Positions 47,402 through 64,000 of a DNA stretch of 64,000 nucleotides are shown here, in pieces. The translations under genes and the position numbers were made by a program. The notes beneath the pieces are model-generated. The model was not told the DNA's origin. It did not search any database and saw only the letters and a program-made list of their open reading frames with translations. Position 1 is the first letter of the stretch. The number at the start of each line of letters is the position of its first letter. The stretch comes from Pseudomonas fluorescens (lineage in GTDB: Bacteria; Pseudomonadota; Gammaproteobacteria; Pseudomonadales; Pseudomonadaceae): positions 1 to 64,000 of the forward strand of contig LR782234.1 in assembly GCA_902825215.1 (NCBI GenBank), given 5' to 3'.

Positions 47402-48106
47402 TATCTTTACCCTTACTTGCGTTTGACTCAGGCACATGCAGGAACTGGAACGCTCATCAGCGGAAAAGTCTGTGCATCTGCCTCCGTATAAGGTGCCCCG
47501 AAGCGCGTGTTTACGGCTCTTCGGCAGGCGAAAAAAGGCGCAACTATTCCGATGCAAGGTTGCGCCGTCTAATGCCGTAAACGCCTACCCTATGCCGAAT
47601 CGGCATGAGCTTTTTTAATTGAAACTGGCGTCCCAACCGGTTCGATTGTGACATTTCAGCCGCCATAAGTGCCGTGAACCGGCCATTCCAGCGTAGATGC
47701 CGTTAATCAGCAGCGTAAAAAATCGACGAAAAACTTGCGAAAAAACCTACGCAGAGAGACTAGAAGTCCCACTCTTTAAACGGTTTCTTTATCGATATAC
47801 GGTCGTCAGGAAACACCGCGTAATATTTGCAGGCGCAGTGTTGACGATAAAAAGGCTGTGAAGGGCGCGCTGGATCAAGCTTTTTACATGGGGAAGCTCA
47901 GCGCAAGTCCGTCGAGCCATGATCGGTCGACGAACCTGCGACGCAGCTTTTACCTGCCCTGACCCGGCCCTTGCGCAGGCACTCCCTGTACCCGTAGGTC
48001 ACTCCGACCCTGTAGCAGTCAGAACGTCCCGGCCCCCTGGTCATGCACCGACCCTCCTCGGGTGGGTGCAATGGAAAGCAGCAGGGCTGCTGCCTTCATG
48101 TTCGAA
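47402..48106. other. 705-bp non-coding region upstream of gltP
   Basis: No convincing protein gene on either strand. It holds a minus-strand terminator at 47531-47566 and a small palindrome ATGCC-GAATC-GGCAT followed by T6 on the plus strand (about 47588-47612). Runs of A on the plus strand (47717-47750) and an AT-rich patch around 47770-47830 could hold a promoter. A regulatory RNA or long leader is possible. Confidence 0.5.
47531..47566 (-). terminator. intrinsic terminator or attenuator upstream of gltP
   Basis: Perfect 8-bp stem GGCGCAAC/GTTGCGCC with a 14-base loop; on the minus strand it is followed by T6. It is 130 bp before the gltP start and in its direction, and more than 500 bp after ivy. 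Confidence 0.75.
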
Positions 48107-48571
48107 TCAGTACCACTTCGGATCTTTCTTCAGGGTTTCCATCAGCAGATCCTGCATACCCTGGTCTGGCTTGCCGAAGAAGCGGTAGGTGGCGTGTCGC
48201 GTCGGCGATTTGTCCTGCGGCAGACCTTCCGGCACATCAACCAGCATCGCGTAAGCGTCGTCCTTGTCGAAGCTGAAGGCGACGATCAAGCGATGGTTCA
48301 GGCATTTGTCCTGACTTTCGCAGAGCGGGCCCACCAGATATTTATCGCCGTCTTCAGTGACCGCGTTCATCTGTTGTTCCGATGTGCCGGTCAGGTTGAT
48401 CACCCATTCCGGTACGCGCTCTTCCTTTTTGATCACGCCTTCCCAGGTTTCCCGGTATTGCGCATCGGACGCGAGCAACTCGTTGACCCGCGTCTGGCCG
48501 TCATTGGCCGCCATCGCCATGGCACTGCCGCCCAGAAGCAGGGCGGCGGCCAGCGTCTTCAAGACTGTCAT
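48107..48571 (-). CDS. Ivy-family lysozyme inhibitor
   Basis: A 154-residue periplasmic protein with a signal peptide (to about 21, AMAMA). The segment ASDAQYRETWEGVIKKE and the following PEWVINL and Cys-loop strand order match the inhibitor of vertebrate lysozyme family. The key loop, CKPHDC in E. coli Ivy, reads CESQDKC here: one residue longer and without His, so C-type lysozyme inhibition is uncertain. The ATG lies 3 bases after the stop of the small membrane-protein gene, so the two are cotranscribed. P. aeruginosa has related genes at the equivalent locus near algB. Confidence 0.72.
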   Translation of the reverse strand: MTVLKTLAAALLLGGSAMAMAANDGQTRVNELLASDAQYRETWEGVIKKEERVPEWVINLTGTSEQQMNAVTEDGDKYLVGPLCESQDKCLNHRLIVAFSFDKDDAYAMLVDVPEGLPQDKSPTRHATYRFFGKPDQGMQDLLMETLKKDPKWY

Positions 48572-49529: not shown

Positions 49530-50876
49530 ATGGAATCTGCCACTGAGCATCAAGGCCGCATTCTGCTGGTGGACGACGAATCCGCCATCCTGCGTACCTT
49601 CCGTTATTGCCTCGAAGACGAAGGTTATACGGTGGCCACCGCCAACAGCGCGGCCCAGGCCGAGGCATTGCTGCAGCGCCAGGTGTTCGACCTGTGCTTC
49701 CTTGATTTACGTCTGGGTGAAGACAACGGTCTGGATGTACTGGCGCAAATGCGTATCCAGGCGCCTTGGATGCGCGTGGTCATCGTCACCGCGCACTCGG
49801 CTGTCGATACCGCGGTGGATGCCATTCAGGCGGGCGCGGCCGATTATCTGGTGAAACCGTGCAGCCCCGATCAGTTGCGTTTGGCCACCGCCAAGCAACT
49901 GGAGGTACGCCGGCTGTCGGCACGCCTGGAAGCACTCGAAGGCGAAATCCGCAAACCCAAGGACGGTCTCGACTCCCACAGTCCGGCCATGAAAGTCGTG
50001 CTCGAAACCGCTCGCCAGGTTGCCAGCACCGACGCCAACATTCTGATTCTCGGCGAGTCCGGTACGGGTAAGGGCGAATTGGCTCGAGCCATTCACGGCT
50101 GGAGCAAGCGCGAGAAGAAATCCTGCGTGACCATCAACTGCCCGTCATTGACCGCCGAGTTGATGGAAAGCGAACTGTTCGGCCACAGCCGCGGCGCCTT
50201 CACCGGCGCCAGCGAAAGCACCTTGGGCCGGGTCAATCAGGCGGATGGCGGTACGCTGTTTCTCGACGAGATCGGCGACTTTCCCCTGACTTTGCAGCCG
50301 AAATTGCTGCGTTTCATTCAGGACAAGGAATACGAACGCGTCGGCGACCCGGTCACCCGCCGCGCCGATGTGCGGATACTGGCGGCGACCAACCTGAACC
50401 TTGAAGACATGGTTCGCGACGGACGCTTCCGCGAAGACCTGCTCTATCGCCTCAACGTCATCACGCTGCATCTGCCGCCGTTGCGTGAGCGCGCCGAGGA
50501 CATCCTGACCCTGGCTGACCGCTTCCTGGCGCGTTTCGTCAAAGAGTATGCGCGCCCTGCGCGTGGTTTCAGTGACGAGGCCCGCGAGGCGCTGCTCGGC
50601 TACCGTTGGCCCGGCAACATTCGCGAGCTGCGCAACGTGGTCGAGCGGGCCAGCATCATTTGCCCGCAGGAACGTGTGGAAATCAGCCACCTCGGCATGG
50701 CCGAGCAACCGGCCAATAACGCGCCACGGGTCGGCGCAGCACTGAGCCTCGACGAACTGGAAAAAGCTCATATCGGCGCCGTCCTGGCGACGGCCGGCAC
50801 CCTCGATCAAGCCGCCAAGACCCTGGGTATCGACGCTTCGACCCTGTATCGCAAGCGCAAGCAGTACAACCTGTGA
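49530..50876 (+). CDS. algB: NtrC-family response regulator AlgB
   Basis: AlgB is the response regulator paired with KinB; in P. aeruginosa it activates algD and alginate production and links to light and density sensing. The 448-residue protein has a receiver with D59, an AAA+ domain with Walker A GESGTGKGE (about 172), GAFTGA at 222-227 (sigma-54 contact) and a C-terminal helix-turn-helix (TLDQAAKTLGIDASTLYRKR). The order with kinB, the ending RKQYNL and the whole receiver are close to the P. aeruginosa protein. TAGGAAA precedes the ATG. kinB follows after 10 bp. Confidence 0.96.
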   Translation: MESATEHQGRILLVDDESAILRTFRYCLEDEGYTVATANSAAQAEALLQRQVFDLCFLDLRLGEDNGLDVLAQMRIQAPWMRVVIVTAHSAVDTAVDAIQAGAADYLVKPCSPDQLRLATAKQLEVRRLSARLEALEGEIRKPKDGLDSHSPAMKVVLETARQVASTDANILILGESGTGKGELARAIHGWSKREKKSCVTINCPSLTAELMESELFGHSRGAFTGASESTLGRVNQADGGTLFLDEIGDFPLTLQPKLLRFIQDKEYERVGDPVTRRADVRILAATNLNLEDMVRDGRFREDLLYRLNVITLHLPPLRERAEDILTLADRFLARFVKEYARPARGFSDEAREALLGYRWPGNIRELRNVVERASIICPQERVEISHLGMAEQPANNAPRVGAALSLDELEKAHIGAVLATAGTLDQAAKTLGIDASTLYRKRKQYNL

Positions 50877-50886
50877 GCGCCCGGCG

Positions 50887-52677
50887 ATGAAACTGGCGAT
50901 GAAGTTGCGGACCCGTTTGTTCCTGAGCATTTCCGCACTGATCACCGTGGCCTTGCTCGGGCTGCTGCTCGGGCTGGTCAGCGTGATGCAGATGGCCGGA
51001 ACGCAAGAAGCGTTGGTGCGCAGCAACTTCGTCACCCTTGAGCTGGGGCTCAAGTTGCGGCAGACCTTGGGCGATCAACTGATCATCATGCTCGCGGAAA
51101 AGCCTGATCCCGTCGCGTTCGAGGCCTCCAAACAGCATTACTTCCAGTTGCTCGACGAGGGTATCGCGCAAGAGCAGCACGATGGCGAGCGCCAATATGG
51201 TTTCAGCCAGGCCAAGGCCGACTACCTGAATTTCCTGCAAGCCTTCGATCTGTCTCGCGACCCCTCCAACGCCGCAAGCTCCAGCGCCGATTTCAGAGAG
51301 CGCTTCAATATTCTGCGCAACGGACTGATCACCGAACACAAACACGCGCTGGATAAGATCAACGGCGTACAGAACGACGCGCGCGACCGCGCCCTGTTGA
51401 TCGCCGGCCTGCTCGGGCTGGTGGGGCTCGCCGTGCTGATCATCGGATTTGTCACCGCCCACGGCGTCGCCCGGCGCTTTGGGGCGCCGATCGAAGCGCT
51501 GGCGCAAGCGGCGGATGAAATCGGCAAAGGCAAATACGACGTGACCCTGCCAGTGTCCTCGTCGCTGGAACTGAACCAGTTGACCAAACGTTTCGGCCAG
51601 ATGGCCGAGGCCTTGCGCGAGCACCAGGCGACCAACGTCGATGAGCTACTGGCCGGGCAGCAACGGCTGCAGGCGGTCCTCGACAGCATCGATGACGGCT
51701 TGTTGATGATTGATCGCCAAGGGCAACTGGAGCACCTCAATCCGGTCGCCCAGCGGCAACTCGGCTGGGAAGACGACCGTCTCGGTCAGGGCCTGGGCAC
51801 CGCCCTCGGCAGGCCCGAATTGGATGCGCAGCTGCAACTGGTGCTGCGCGGTGGCACGCTGGAGCGCGCGCCAGACGATCTGAGCATCGAAGTCGACGGC
51901 GAATCGCGTTTGCTGACCTACAGCCTGACGCCGGTCAGCCATACCCAAGGGCATATTCTTGGCGCTGTGATGGTGCTGCACGATGTCACCGAGCAACGTG
52001 CGTTCGAGCGGGTGCGCAGCGAGTTTGTCCTGCGCGCCTCCCATGAATTGCGCACGCCGGTCACTGGCATGCACATGGCGTTCGGCCTGTTCCGTGAGCG
52101 GGCGAAATTCCCCGAAGAGTCGCGCGAAGCGGACTTGCTCGACACGGTCAACGAAGAGATGCAGCGCTTGATGCAGTTGATCAACGACCTGCTCAACTTC
52201 TCGCGCTACCAGAACGGTTTGCAGAAACTCACAATCGCACCGTGCTCGATAGAAGACCTGCTGGAACAGGCGCAACTGCGTTTCGCCGAGGCGGCAGAGG
52301 CCAAGGGCATTGCCTTGAAGGTCGAAGTGCAGGGACCGTTACCGCGCTTGCAGGCCGATCAGACACAACTGGATCGGGTCCTCGATAATCTCATCGACAA
52401 TGCCTTGCGCCATACCGCCCGCGACGGGCAGATCCGCTTGCAGGCGCGTCGGCACGGCGAGCGGGTGATCATCAGCGTCGAAGATAATGGCGAAGGCATT
52501 GCCTACGGCCAGCAAGGGCGAATCTTCGAGCCGTTCGTGCAGGTCGGTCGCAAGAAGGGCGGCGCCGGGCTCGGGCTGGCGCTGTGCAAGGAGATTGTCC
52601 AACTGCACGGCGGGCGCATGGGCGTGTATTCGCGGCCGGGGCAGGGCACGCAGTTTTATATGGCCCTGGCCGTTTAG
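50887..52677 (+). CDS. kinB: sensor histidine kinase KinB
   Basis: KinB is the membrane sensor kinase/phosphatase for AlgB. The 596-residue protein has a membrane segment at about 10-33, a periplasmic helical domain (about 35-160), a second segment (about 165-187), a HAMP domain, a PAS domain (about 250-370), HisKA with H386 in ASHELRTPV, and an ATPase domain with NLIDNALRH, DNGEGI and GAGLGLAL. In P. aeruginosa loss of KinB gives mucoid cells through RpoN and AlgB. The kinase residues are all intact here. Confidence 0.95.
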   Translation: MKLAMKLRTRLFLSISALITVALLGLLLGLVSVMQMAGTQEALVRSNFVTLELGLKLRQTLGDQLIIMLAEKPDPVAFEASKQHYFQLLDEGIAQEQHDGERQYGFSQAKADYLNFLQAFDLSRDPSNAASSSADFRERFNILRNGLITEHKHALDKINGVQNDARDRALLIAGLLGLVGLAVLIIGFVTAHGVARRFGAPIEALAQAADEIGKGKYDVTLPVSSSLELNQLTKRFGQMAEALREHQATNVDELLAGQQRLQAVLDSIDDGLLMIDRQGQLEHLNPVAQRQLGWEDDRLGQGLGTALGRPELDAQLQLVLRGGTLERAPDDLSIEVDGESRLLTYSLTPVSHTQGHILGAVMVLHDVTEQRAFERVRSEFVLRASHELRTPVTGMHMAFGLFRERAKFPEESREADLLDTVNEEMQRLMQLINDLLNFSRYQNGLQKLTIAPCSIEDLLEQAQLRFAEAAEAKGIALKVEVQGPLPRLQADQTQLDRVLDNLIDNALRHTARDGQIRLQARRHGERVIISVEDNGEGIAYGQQGRIFEPFVQVGRKKGGAGLGLALCKEIVQLHGGRMGVYSRPGQGTQFYMALAV

Positions 52678-60780: not shown

Positions 60781-61428
60781 ATGCAACTCAAGAATCCCAT
60801 CCTCGGCCTGTGCCAACAGTCCACGTTCATGCTCAGTGCCGCCAAAGTCGATCAATGCCCTAACGACGAAGGCTTCGAAGTGGCGTTCGCCGGTCGTTCC
60901 AATGCCGGTAAATCCAGCGCATTGAACACTTTGACGCACGCCAGCCTGGCGCGGACCTCGAAAACCCCGGGTCGCACACAGCTATTGAATTTCTTCAAGC
61001 TAGACGATGATCGGCGTCTGGTCGACCTGCCGGGCTACGGTTACGCAAAAGTACCGATCCCGCTCAAGCAACATTGGCAGCGTCACCTCGAGGCTTACCT
61101 CGGTGGTCGGGAGAGTTTGAAAGGTCTGATTCTGATGATGGACATCCGCCATCCGATGACCGATTTCGACCTGCTGATGCTCGACTGGGCCGTCGCCGCT
61201 GGCATGCCGATGCACATCCTGCTGACCAAGGCTGACAAGCTCACCTATGGCGCGGCAAAAAACACGCTGCTGAAAGTGCAGTCGGAAATCCGCAAAGGCT
61301 GGGGCGACTCAATCACCATCCAGCTGTTCTCCGCGCCAAAACGCATGGGCCTGGAAGAGGCCTACACCGTCCTGGCCGACTGGATGGAACTGGCAGACAA
61401 AAACACCGAGGCCGCTGCTGCGGAGTAA
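60781..61428 (+). CDS. engB: ribosome-biogenesis GTPase EngB (YihA)
   Basis: An essential GTPase for large-subunit assembly. The 215-residue protein has all G motifs: the P-loop GRSNAGKSS at 38-46, the G2 Thr in GRTQLLN, the G3 DLPGYG and the G4 TKADK. engB is divergent from the cytochrome gene and convergent with the small RNA and polA, the same context as in P. aeruginosa and similar to that of E. coli polA-spf-yihA. Confidence 0.96.
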
Positions 61429-61436
61429 GGCGAGTT

Positions 61437-61559
61437 CAAAACTGTCTGTGGTGCTGTCAGGCAAGGCAAAGGCATCGCTAAAAAGCGGAGTTTAGGGGAC
61501 CTAAATGAGCATTTTAGCGGTGCCTTTAACGCAGCATGACGGCATCACAGCCAGTTTTG
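61437..61559. repeat. 123-bp imperfect palindrome (MITE-like)
   Basis: The outer arms (61437-61459 and 61537-61559) match at 20 of 23 bases when one is inverted. A middle arm pair, AAAGGCA-CGCTAAAA and complement, matches again at 61468-61483 and 61512-61527 with one mismatch, and TTTAGG-GGA-CCTAAA forms the tip at 61491-61505. It starts 8 bases after engB and ends 4 bases before the T-run of the small RNA. It could terminate engB or be a miniature mobile repeat. Confidence 0.75.
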
Positions 61560-61563
61560 GGGC

Positions 61564-61697
61564 AAAAAAAAGCCCCGGGATTCAGTGGGGAGGTAGAATT
61601 CCGGGGTTCAAGTTCCGAACCGCTAGGGCGGGGTTCAGATATCTGCCAACACTTAACACAACATAGGAGCATCGAAGGGCTTCACCAGCCATTCAGT
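61564..61697 (-). ncRNA. ersA: ErsA-type small RNA (Spot 42 position)
   Basis: The gap between engB and polA is where P. aeruginosa encodes the envelope-stress small RNA ErsA and E. coli encodes Spot 42. On the minus strand a promoter ends at 61701, a start near 61697 is expected, and a strong terminator (CCCCGG ... CCGGGG, then T8 at 61571-61564) gives about 134 nt, close to the known 132 nt of ErsA. In P. aeruginosa ErsA, with Hfq, represses algC and oprD. Identity is by position, promoter and length; I could not align the sequences. Confidence 0.8.
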
Positions 61698-61700
61698 ACC

Positions 61701-61728
61701 TCTGAGTGTTCGGTCGCCAGATTAGTTC
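61701..61728 (-). promoter_or_regulatory. AlgU (sigma-22)-type promoter of the small RNA
   Basis: On the minus strand GAACTA (61728-61723), a 17-bp spacer and TCAGA (61705-61701) match the AlgU/sigma-E pattern GAACTT-N16/17-TCTGA with one change in each element. ErsA of P. aeruginosa is AlgU-dependent. Confidence 0.7.
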
Positions 61729-61794
61729 AGATTTTTTTCGAAAACTTTGGAATAGCACTCAGCGTTTTCAGGTCTAAGCCCGTTTTCAAGGGGT

Positions 61795-61818
61795 TTGCCG
61801 CGACTTCGGTCGCGGCAA
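61795..61818. terminator. hairpin after polA
   Basis: A perfect 10-bp stem TTGCCGCGAC/GTCGCGGCAA with a TTCG loop, 10 bp beyond the polA stop. There is no T-run, so it is a weak terminator or an RNA-stabilising element. Confidence 0.45.
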
Positions 61819-61828
61819 GACACGCGTC

Positions 61829-64000
61829 TTAGTGCGCCTCATCCCAGTTGTTGCCCACACCCACTTCCACCAGCAACGGCACATCCAGTGTCGCCGCTTC
61901 GCTCATGTGCTGACGAATCTCGGCGCTGACCTGCTCGACCAGATCCTCACGCACCTCCAATACCAGTTCGTCGTGCACCTGCAGGATGACCCGGGCATCG
62001 AGCCCGGACGTCGCCAGCCAGTTGTCCACCGCGACCATGGCTTTTTTGATGATGTCGGCGGCGGTGCCCTGCATCGGCGCGTTGATCGCCGTACGCTCGG
62101 CGGCGGCGCGTTCCTGCGGCTTGTTCGAGTTGATCTCCGGCAAGTACAGGCGACGGCCGAAGAAGGTTTCGACGTAACCCTGATCCGCCGCCTGCGCGCG
62201 GGTGCGCTCCATGTATTCGCGAACCCCCGGATAGCGGGCGAAGTAGGTGTCGATGTAGGCCTTGGCGGTCTTGGTGTCGACACCAATGTCCTTGCCCAGT
62301 TTCTGCGCGCCCATGCCATAGATCAGGCCGAAGTTGATCGCCTTGGCGCTGCGACGCTGGTCGGAACTCACTTCATGCAGCTCGACCTTGAACACTTCGG
62401 CAGCCGTGGCGGTGTGTACGTCCAGGTTGTTGCGGAAGGCGTTCATCAGACCTTCGTCGCGGGACAGGTGCGCCATGATCCGCAGTTCGATCTGCGAATA
62501 GTCCGCCGCCAGCAGTTTGTAGCCTTTCGGCGCCACAAAAGCCTGGCGGATGCGCCGGCCTTCAGCGGTGCGCACCGGAATGTTCTGCAGGTTCGGATCG
62601 CTGGAAGACAGGCGACCGGTCGATGCCACTGCTTGATGATAGGAGGTGTGGATACGTCCCGTGCGCGGGTTGATCTGCTCCGGCAGGCGATCGGTGTAGG
62701 TGCTTTTCAGCTTGCTCATCGAACGGTGCTCCATCAGCACCTTCGGCAAGCGGTGATCGTCTTCGGCGAGTTTGGCCAGCACTTCTTCAGCGGTAGACGG
62801 CTGGCCCTTGGCAGTCTTCTTCAAGACCGGCAGGCCAAGCTTTTCGTACAGGATTACGCCCAGTTGCTTCGGTGAGCCCAAGTTGAATTCTTCGCCAGCA
62901 ATCTCGAACGCTTCGCGCTCCAGCGCGACCATCTTGTTGCCCAGCTCGATGCTCTGGATACCCAGCAGTTCGGCGTCGACAAAGGCGCCCTGACGCTCGA
63001 TGCGCGCCAGTACCGGTACCAGCGGCATCTCGATATCGGTCAGTACGCTGGCCAGGCTCGGAATGGCATTGAGTTTCTCCACCAGCGCCTGATGCAGGCG
63101 CAGGGTAATGTCGGCGTCTTCAGCGGCATACGGCCCGGCCTGTTCCAGTGCGATCTGGTCGAAGGTCAGCTGCTTGGCGCCTTTGCCGGCAATGTCCTGG
63201 AAGCTCACGGTGGTGTGGTCCAGGTATTTCAGCGCGAGGCTGTCCATGTCGTGGCGGGTCGCGGTGGAGTTGAGCACGTAGGACTCAAGCATGGTGTCGA
63301 AGGCAATTCCGCGCACGTTGATGCCTGCACTTTGATCGCCACCGATGGCGCAGTTGGCGAGGATGTTCATATCGAACTTGGCGTGCTGGCCGACTTTCAG
63401 CTTGTCCGGATCTTCGAGAATCGGTTTGAGTGCGCGCAACACGCTGTCGCGATCCAGTTGCTCCGGCACGCCGATGTACGAATGGGTCAGCGGGATATAG
63501 GCGGCTTCGTTGGCCTGTACGGCGAACGACAGACCGACCAGTTGCGCCTGCTGCGCGTCGATGCCGGTGGTTTCCGTGTCGAAGGCGAACAGCTTGGCGT
63601 TGCGCAGTTTTTCCAGCCAGACGTCAAAGCGCGCCTGATCGAGGATGGTTTCGTACGCGGCCTCAGCAGGCGCGGCGGGTGCCTCGGCGGCGGCCGCGCT
63701 GAACAGATCATGCGCGGGCGCCGGTTCGGCCGTCGCGCTGAGTTCCAGACGCTTGGCGTCGCGATCAAGGTCGTTCAGCCAGCTCTTGAATTCCAGCAGG
63801 GTGTACAGCTCGTACAGCTTGGCTGGGTCTTCCGGGCCCATCTGCAGGTCGTCGAGGCCGATATCCAGCGGCACGTCGATCTTGATGGTCGCCAATTGGT
63901 AGGAGAGGAATGCCATCTCCTTGTGCTCTTCGAGTTTGGCCGGCAGGGTCTTGGCGCCGCGAATCGGCAGAGTCGGGACGATGTCGAGGTTGGCGTACAG
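61829..64000 (-). CDS. polA: DNA polymerase I, 5' end cut by the window
   Basis: PolA fills gaps in repair and Okazaki-fragment maturation. The window holds the C-terminal 723 codons; the frame stays open to the last base, so the gene continues beyond 64000 and an ATG at 63916 is not the start. Visible parts are the end of the 5' nuclease region, the 3'-5' exonuclease domain with the FDTETT metal motif (so proofreading is likely active) and the polymerase domain with motif A DYSQIELR, motif B RRSAKAINFGLIYG and motif C VHDELV. It ends 10 bp before a hairpin. Confidence 0.97.
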   Translation of the reverse strand: MYANLDIVPTLPIRGAKTLPAKLEEHKEMAFLSYQLATIKIDVPLDIGLDDLQMGPEDPAKLYELYTLLEFKSWLNDLDRDAKRLELSATAEPAPAHDLFSAAAAEAPAAPAEAAYETILDQARFDVWLEKLRNAKLFAFDTETTGIDAQQAQLVGLSFAVQANEAAYIPLTHSYIGVPEQLDRDSVLRALKPILEDPDKLKVGQHAKFDMNILANCAIGGDQSAGINVRGIAFDTMLESYVLNSTATRHDMDSLALKYLDHTTVSFQDIAGKGAKQLTFDQIALEQAGPYAAEDADITLRLHQALVEKLNAIPSLASVLTDIEMPLVPVLARIERQGAFVDAELLGIQSIELGNKMVALEREAFEIAGEEFNLGSPKQLGVILYEKLGLPVLKKTAKGQPSTAEEVLAKLAEDDHRLPKVLMEHRSMSKLKSTYTDRLPEQINPRTGRIHTSYHQAVASTGRLSSSDPNLQNIPVRTAEGRRIRQAFVAPKGYKLLAADYSQIELRIMAHLSRDEGLMNAFRNNLDVHTATAAEVFKVELHEVSSDQRRSAKAINFGLIYGMGAQKLGKDIGVDTKTAKAYIDTYFARYPGVREYMERTRAQAADQGYVETFFGRRLYLPEINSNKPQERAAAERTAINAPMQGTAADIIKKAMVAVDNWLATSGLDARVILQVHDELVLEVREDLVEQVSAEIRQHMSEAATLDVPLLVEVGVGNNWDEAH

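Follow-up and report, generated by a model that had tools for sequence, protein, structure and literature searches.

The minus-strand unit that lies between engB and polA in Pseudomonas fluorescens (GCA_902825215.1, contig LR782234.1) raises the question of whether it encodes the small RNA ErsA, as a first-pass annotation had proposed from its AlgU-type promoter, its polA-engB position and its size. From our analysis of the window (the whole stretch of 64,000 nt that was analysed), the observation at 61564-61728 was confirmed to be real with all its pieces in place, the proposed identification was supported, and the unit is almost certainly an orthologue of ErsA (RF01719). The features of the window that bear on this question are as follows.

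49530-50876, plus strand: NtrC-type response regulator, presumably algB (NtrC-type families; 84% match in PA7, syntenic place)
50887-52677, plus strand: sensor histidine kinase, presumably kinB (histidine kinase families; 58% match in PA7, syntenic place)
60781-61428, plus strand: engB, YihA/YsxC GTPase (TIGR03598, 232 bits)
61437-61559, plus strand: imperfect palindrome of 123 bp, not part of ErsA (fold, covariation)
61564-61695, minus strand: ErsA small RNA, 132 nt (RF01719 match; limits inferred from promoter and T8)
61564-61606, minus strand: intrinsic terminator stem-loop with T8 (fold and alignment)
61614-61639, minus strand: ErsA central hairpin, nt 57-82 (alignment of 113 sequences)
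61640-61672, minus strand: target-pairing segment, nt 24-56 (column identity in 113 distinct sequences)
61673-61695, minus strand: ErsA 5' hairpin, nt 1-23 (fold; outside the Rfam model)
61701-61728, minus strand: AlgU/sigma22-type promoter GAACTA-N17-TCAGA (only exact site in the window)
61829-63916, minus strand: polA, DNA polymerase I, running past the window end (NF004397, 880.6 bits)

Identity and gene neighbourhood of the small RNA

A cmscan match to RF01719 (Pseudomon-1/ErsA) was found at 61556-61672 on the minus strand with 118.1 bits against a cutoff of 50 (E = 3.2e-23 over the window, far above chance), which bears out the similarity to ErsA that the annotation had set as a check, and it is the single match in the whole 6.25-Mb genome. 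The family was over its cutoff in all 149 sampled genus genomes, most of which score higher than our copy (best 146.3 bits). Family-wide, it was over the cutoff in 104/119 and at E ≤ 0.001 in 115/119, with presence in 19 of the 19 genera sampled, and none was found in the 14 named control genomes. Two matches occurred in three of the 149 genus genomes (G068, G020, and G021), and partial second matches were seen family-wide in G149, G155, and G166. The second match of G068 (39.6 bits) was rejected as a second ErsA; by eye, it is an unrelated terminator-like hairpin.

The gene order is equally regular. As had been claimed, the unit lies on the minus strand between the two genes, with polA upstream in the same direction and engB convergent. 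The same polA was found in 140/149 loci (the remaining nine hold only 300 bp of flank) and a convergent engB in 146/149 (the remaining three are short fetched stretches). We used PA7 as the P. aeruginosa reference, and the ErsA of P. aeruginosa shares with ours the polA-engB locus, an AlgU-type promoter, a length of about 132 nt, the 5' hairpin, the pairing segment, the central hairpin, and the terminator, whereas its promoter reads GAACTT-N17-TCAGA with a -35 differing from our GAACTA. The search for the PA7 comparison used an approximate anchor (about two extra mismatches at true sites) and left out 25 of 80 loci with 5-7 mismatches; these loci, having no good anchor match, may include diverged ErsA copies. 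The ErsA identity is thus backed by Rfam, gene order, promoter conservation, and the PA7 comparison, and the local ErsA is an ordinary, already known member in its usual Pseudomonas place, that is, a known regulator confirmed where it was expected.

The annotation had further placed algB-kinB about 9 kb away in this strain, as a tie between envelope stress and alginate control. The distance holds, with a gap of 8.9 kb between kinB and ErsA, but PA7 has a matching algB-kinB pair ending about 7.1 kb from its ErsA, and the closeness is therefore not particular to our strain; nothing here shows the circuits to be tied. For both the algB and the kinB candidate, no family was over its cutoff among the 25 matches listed. 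Beyond this pair, an ivy-DE RNA motif (RF02999, 94.7 bits) was noticed at 47952-48043 on the minus strand, just downstream of a minus-strand ORF of 154 aa (48107-48571) which may be ivy.

Promoter, length, and RNA structure

The AlgU-like promoter of the annotation was recovered exactly, at 61728-61701 on the minus strand, as the sole zero-mismatch site in the window; allowing up to one mismatch gives three window sites against 0.9 expected, and three or more occurred in 5 of 100 shuffles. In a scan of 149 loci in which the best site per 90-nt stretch was taken, a promoter of the form GAACT(A/T/C)-N16/17-TC(A/T)(G/C)A was found at the same place in all 149 genus genomes, ending 39-45 nt ahead of the TTAAGTGTTGG anchor, with 107 loci at 44 nt. 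The spacer is 17 in 143 loci and 16 in six, mismatches to GAACTT...TCAGA number none in 54, one in 93 and two in two, and the -35 is GAACTA, as in ours, in 90/149 genomes. Among 745 base-shuffled stretches, 41 (5.5%) reached two mismatches or fewer, 3 reached a single mismatch, and none reached zero. A gene for a sigma factor of the RpoE/AlgU type is present in the genome (TIGR02939, 323 bits, over the curated cutoff), and a scan of the locus for sigma-70 promoters and terminators called no site.

Assuming a start 6 nt after the -10 box and an end at the last base of T8 (61564), the estimated length of our ErsA is 132 nt (61695-61564). The proposed 134 nt fits ErsA in size, though it exceeds this estimate, which itself depends on the assumed start. 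The available text of two papers gives 132 nt for P. aeruginosa ErsA (PMC5819304, PMC7565897), and 121 of our 149 loci are predicted to be 131-133 nt long.

For the structure, 113 distinct ErsA sequences from the 149 loci were aligned. The pairs of the 5' hairpin are kept in at least 91 of the 113, with changes on both sides at three of eight pairs (in 8, 1, and 3 sequences), while the central hairpin has one pair with both-side changes in 36/113 sequences and 0-4 at the remaining pairs. The annotated T8 terminator was also found, its T run (61571-61564) following a G+C-rich stem at 61606-61573; a simple terminator scan allowing loops of 3-8 made no call at ErsA, where the terminator loop folds as 12. 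Across the 113 sequences, the lower stem (nt 90-94 with 119-123) hardly varies, and changes specific to our copy sit in the upper stem and loop, where just 31 of the 113 have a standard pair at our 95-118. With z -1.52, the folding energy of 61566-61694 does not stand out.

Spot 42 (spf) sits between polA and engB in enterobacteria, and this shared neighbourhood could make the unit a Spot 42 orthologue. The portions available of a review, in which ErsA is said to have been identified initially as a functional Spot 42 orthologue (PMC8395346), and of a 2012 survey listing 'Spot42' beside SPA0122 at engB (PMC3349714) point the same way. Against this, Spot 42 is absent both from the over-cutoff Rfam matches in the window and from the five Rfam matches that 61400-61860 gives at E values up to 1, and our promoter is AlgU-type; we rejected a Spot 42 identity as highly improbable and regard that RNA as a positional counterpart at most. 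It is just as hard to believe that our copy is an ErsA which has lost its function in this strain, a reading which could draw on its comparatively low RF01719 score and on the altered upper terminator stem and loop, since the promoter, the pairing segment, T8, and the lower part of the terminator stem are all intact and no version of the pairing segment is commoner. We therefore retain the reading of an ErsA orthologue of ordinary build.

Pairing segment and candidate targets

The most conserved part of ErsA is nt 24-56, with a mean column identity of 0.97 over the 113 distinct sequences. The suggestion that our ErsA may differ in its target-pairing regions holds against PA7, which differs at 6 of 36 sites around the segment (nt 22-57), but our 36-nt version is the commonest of all, occurring in 60/149 loci. 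For P. aeruginosa, the available part of the published work predicts pairing between amrZ and nt 26-56 of ErsA (PMC5819304). In our genome and in PA7, we picked candidate genes for algC, amrZ, and anr by protein families and then by reading by eye.

In our algC, GGAGCAT at -15 is a 7-nt complement of the ErsA motif ATGCTCC; by comparison, of the 70 ORFs of the window, counted with no overlap filter, one has any 7-nt ErsA complement within -30 to -5. Among the 30 closest algC matches from 40 genomes searched, GGAGCA occurs in 16 leaders and GGAGCAT in 15, with each start taken as the methionine closest upstream of a conserved motif (an earlier ATG is present in four loci). The complement is missing in some lineages (leaders L274-L281 and others), and the ErsA segment hardly changes. 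This lineage pattern hints at turnover on the target side, and a candidate site that varies by lineage opposite a nearly fixed pairing segment would fit targets evolving around a fixed RNA. Of 30 amrZ loci fetched after a search of 40 genomes, 29 have a recognised start. The amrZ site TCTGCC is present in 21 of these 29 and absent from eight; it lies within codons of a conserved RLPDG stretch, and coding constraint may explain it.

Duplex energies, computed with no accessibility term, were compared with those of 300 shuffled leaders per gene. For algC, whose target prediction had been suggested as a check, the duplex in our genome was no better than shuffles, 245/300 being equal or better; the corresponding counts were 109/300 for anr and 18/300 for amrZ, and in PA7, they were 74/300 for algC, 52/300 for anr, and 194/300 for amrZ. 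In PA7, the predicted amrZ duplex spans +64 to +105 and overlaps the site that the accessible part of the publication places at +65 to +89 (PMC5819304). Because shuffled leaders did as well in these proportions, algC, amrZ, and anr stay candidate targets.

On the favoured reading, envelope stress would free AlgU (sigma22), which would drive initiation at the GAACTA-N17-TCAGA promoter directly behind polA and yield an ErsA RNA of about 132 nt ending at the strong terminator facing engB. Together with Hfq, the segment nt 24-56 would then pair with mRNAs close to their start sites and alter translation, and on the candidate target algC, ErsA 5'-AUGCUCC-3' would lie over GGAGCAU at -15. As ErsA and an AlgU-type promoter occur together in 149/149 genus genomes, we infer that the stress role of ErsA is probably older than the virulence of P. 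aeruginosa.

A hairpin beside the ErsA terminator

The imperfect palindrome occupies the space that separates engB from ErsA, and the fold of 61437-61563 reaches -72.8 kcal/mol (z -11.25). It exists as one copy in our genome, where other matches are weak (best E 0.06). No inverted repeat came out of a plain repeat search over 61400-61850, though folding shows the long hairpin, and Rfam gave nothing for it beyond weak chance-level matches. Relatives of it are dispersed in other Pseudomonas genomes: related sequence at E ≤ 0.001 was found in 83 of the 149, with few candidates scored per genome, and in at least 18 genomes, ours included, the hairpin and the ErsA match are no more than about 20 bp apart.

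The covariation set comprised 15 in-place copies, leaving out L118 and three loci with a replaced inner part (L122, L075, and L117). Of 729 cells, 95.9% pair, and both-side changes occur at 27 of 50 pairs, although the structure was taken from one of the 15 test sequences, a bias in favour of pairing; values this high occurred in none of 500 shuffles, and pairing in slid controls is 35.6-41.5%. A literature text search with three hairpin fragments gave no title on Pseudomonas repeats among the matches listed. Two repeat families of P. fluorescens, R30 at 120 bp and R178 at 101 bp, as described in the available part of one paper (PMC2718517), are near the hairpin in size; overall, the literature gave no identified match, published repeat families being compared by their descriptions.

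We take the hairpin to represent a family of palindromic repeats in a gap where such sequence is tolerated, and a role as a barrier or 3'-end element is speculation. It is rather unlikely, though worth stating, that an undescribed dispersed Pseudomonas palindrome family has had a copy fixed here in part of the genus, its fold kept by compensatory changes because it serves, where the engB and ersA transcripts converge, as a barrier in both directions or as a protective 3' end. Of the 145 engB-ersA gaps measured, 43 fold below -40 kcal/mol, some via palindromes of other sequence. In L122, L075, and L117, the inner hairpin is partly replaced by other sequence that still folds, and in L118 (genome G036), the hairpin beside ErsA is without its inner part and a shorter hairpin still folds.
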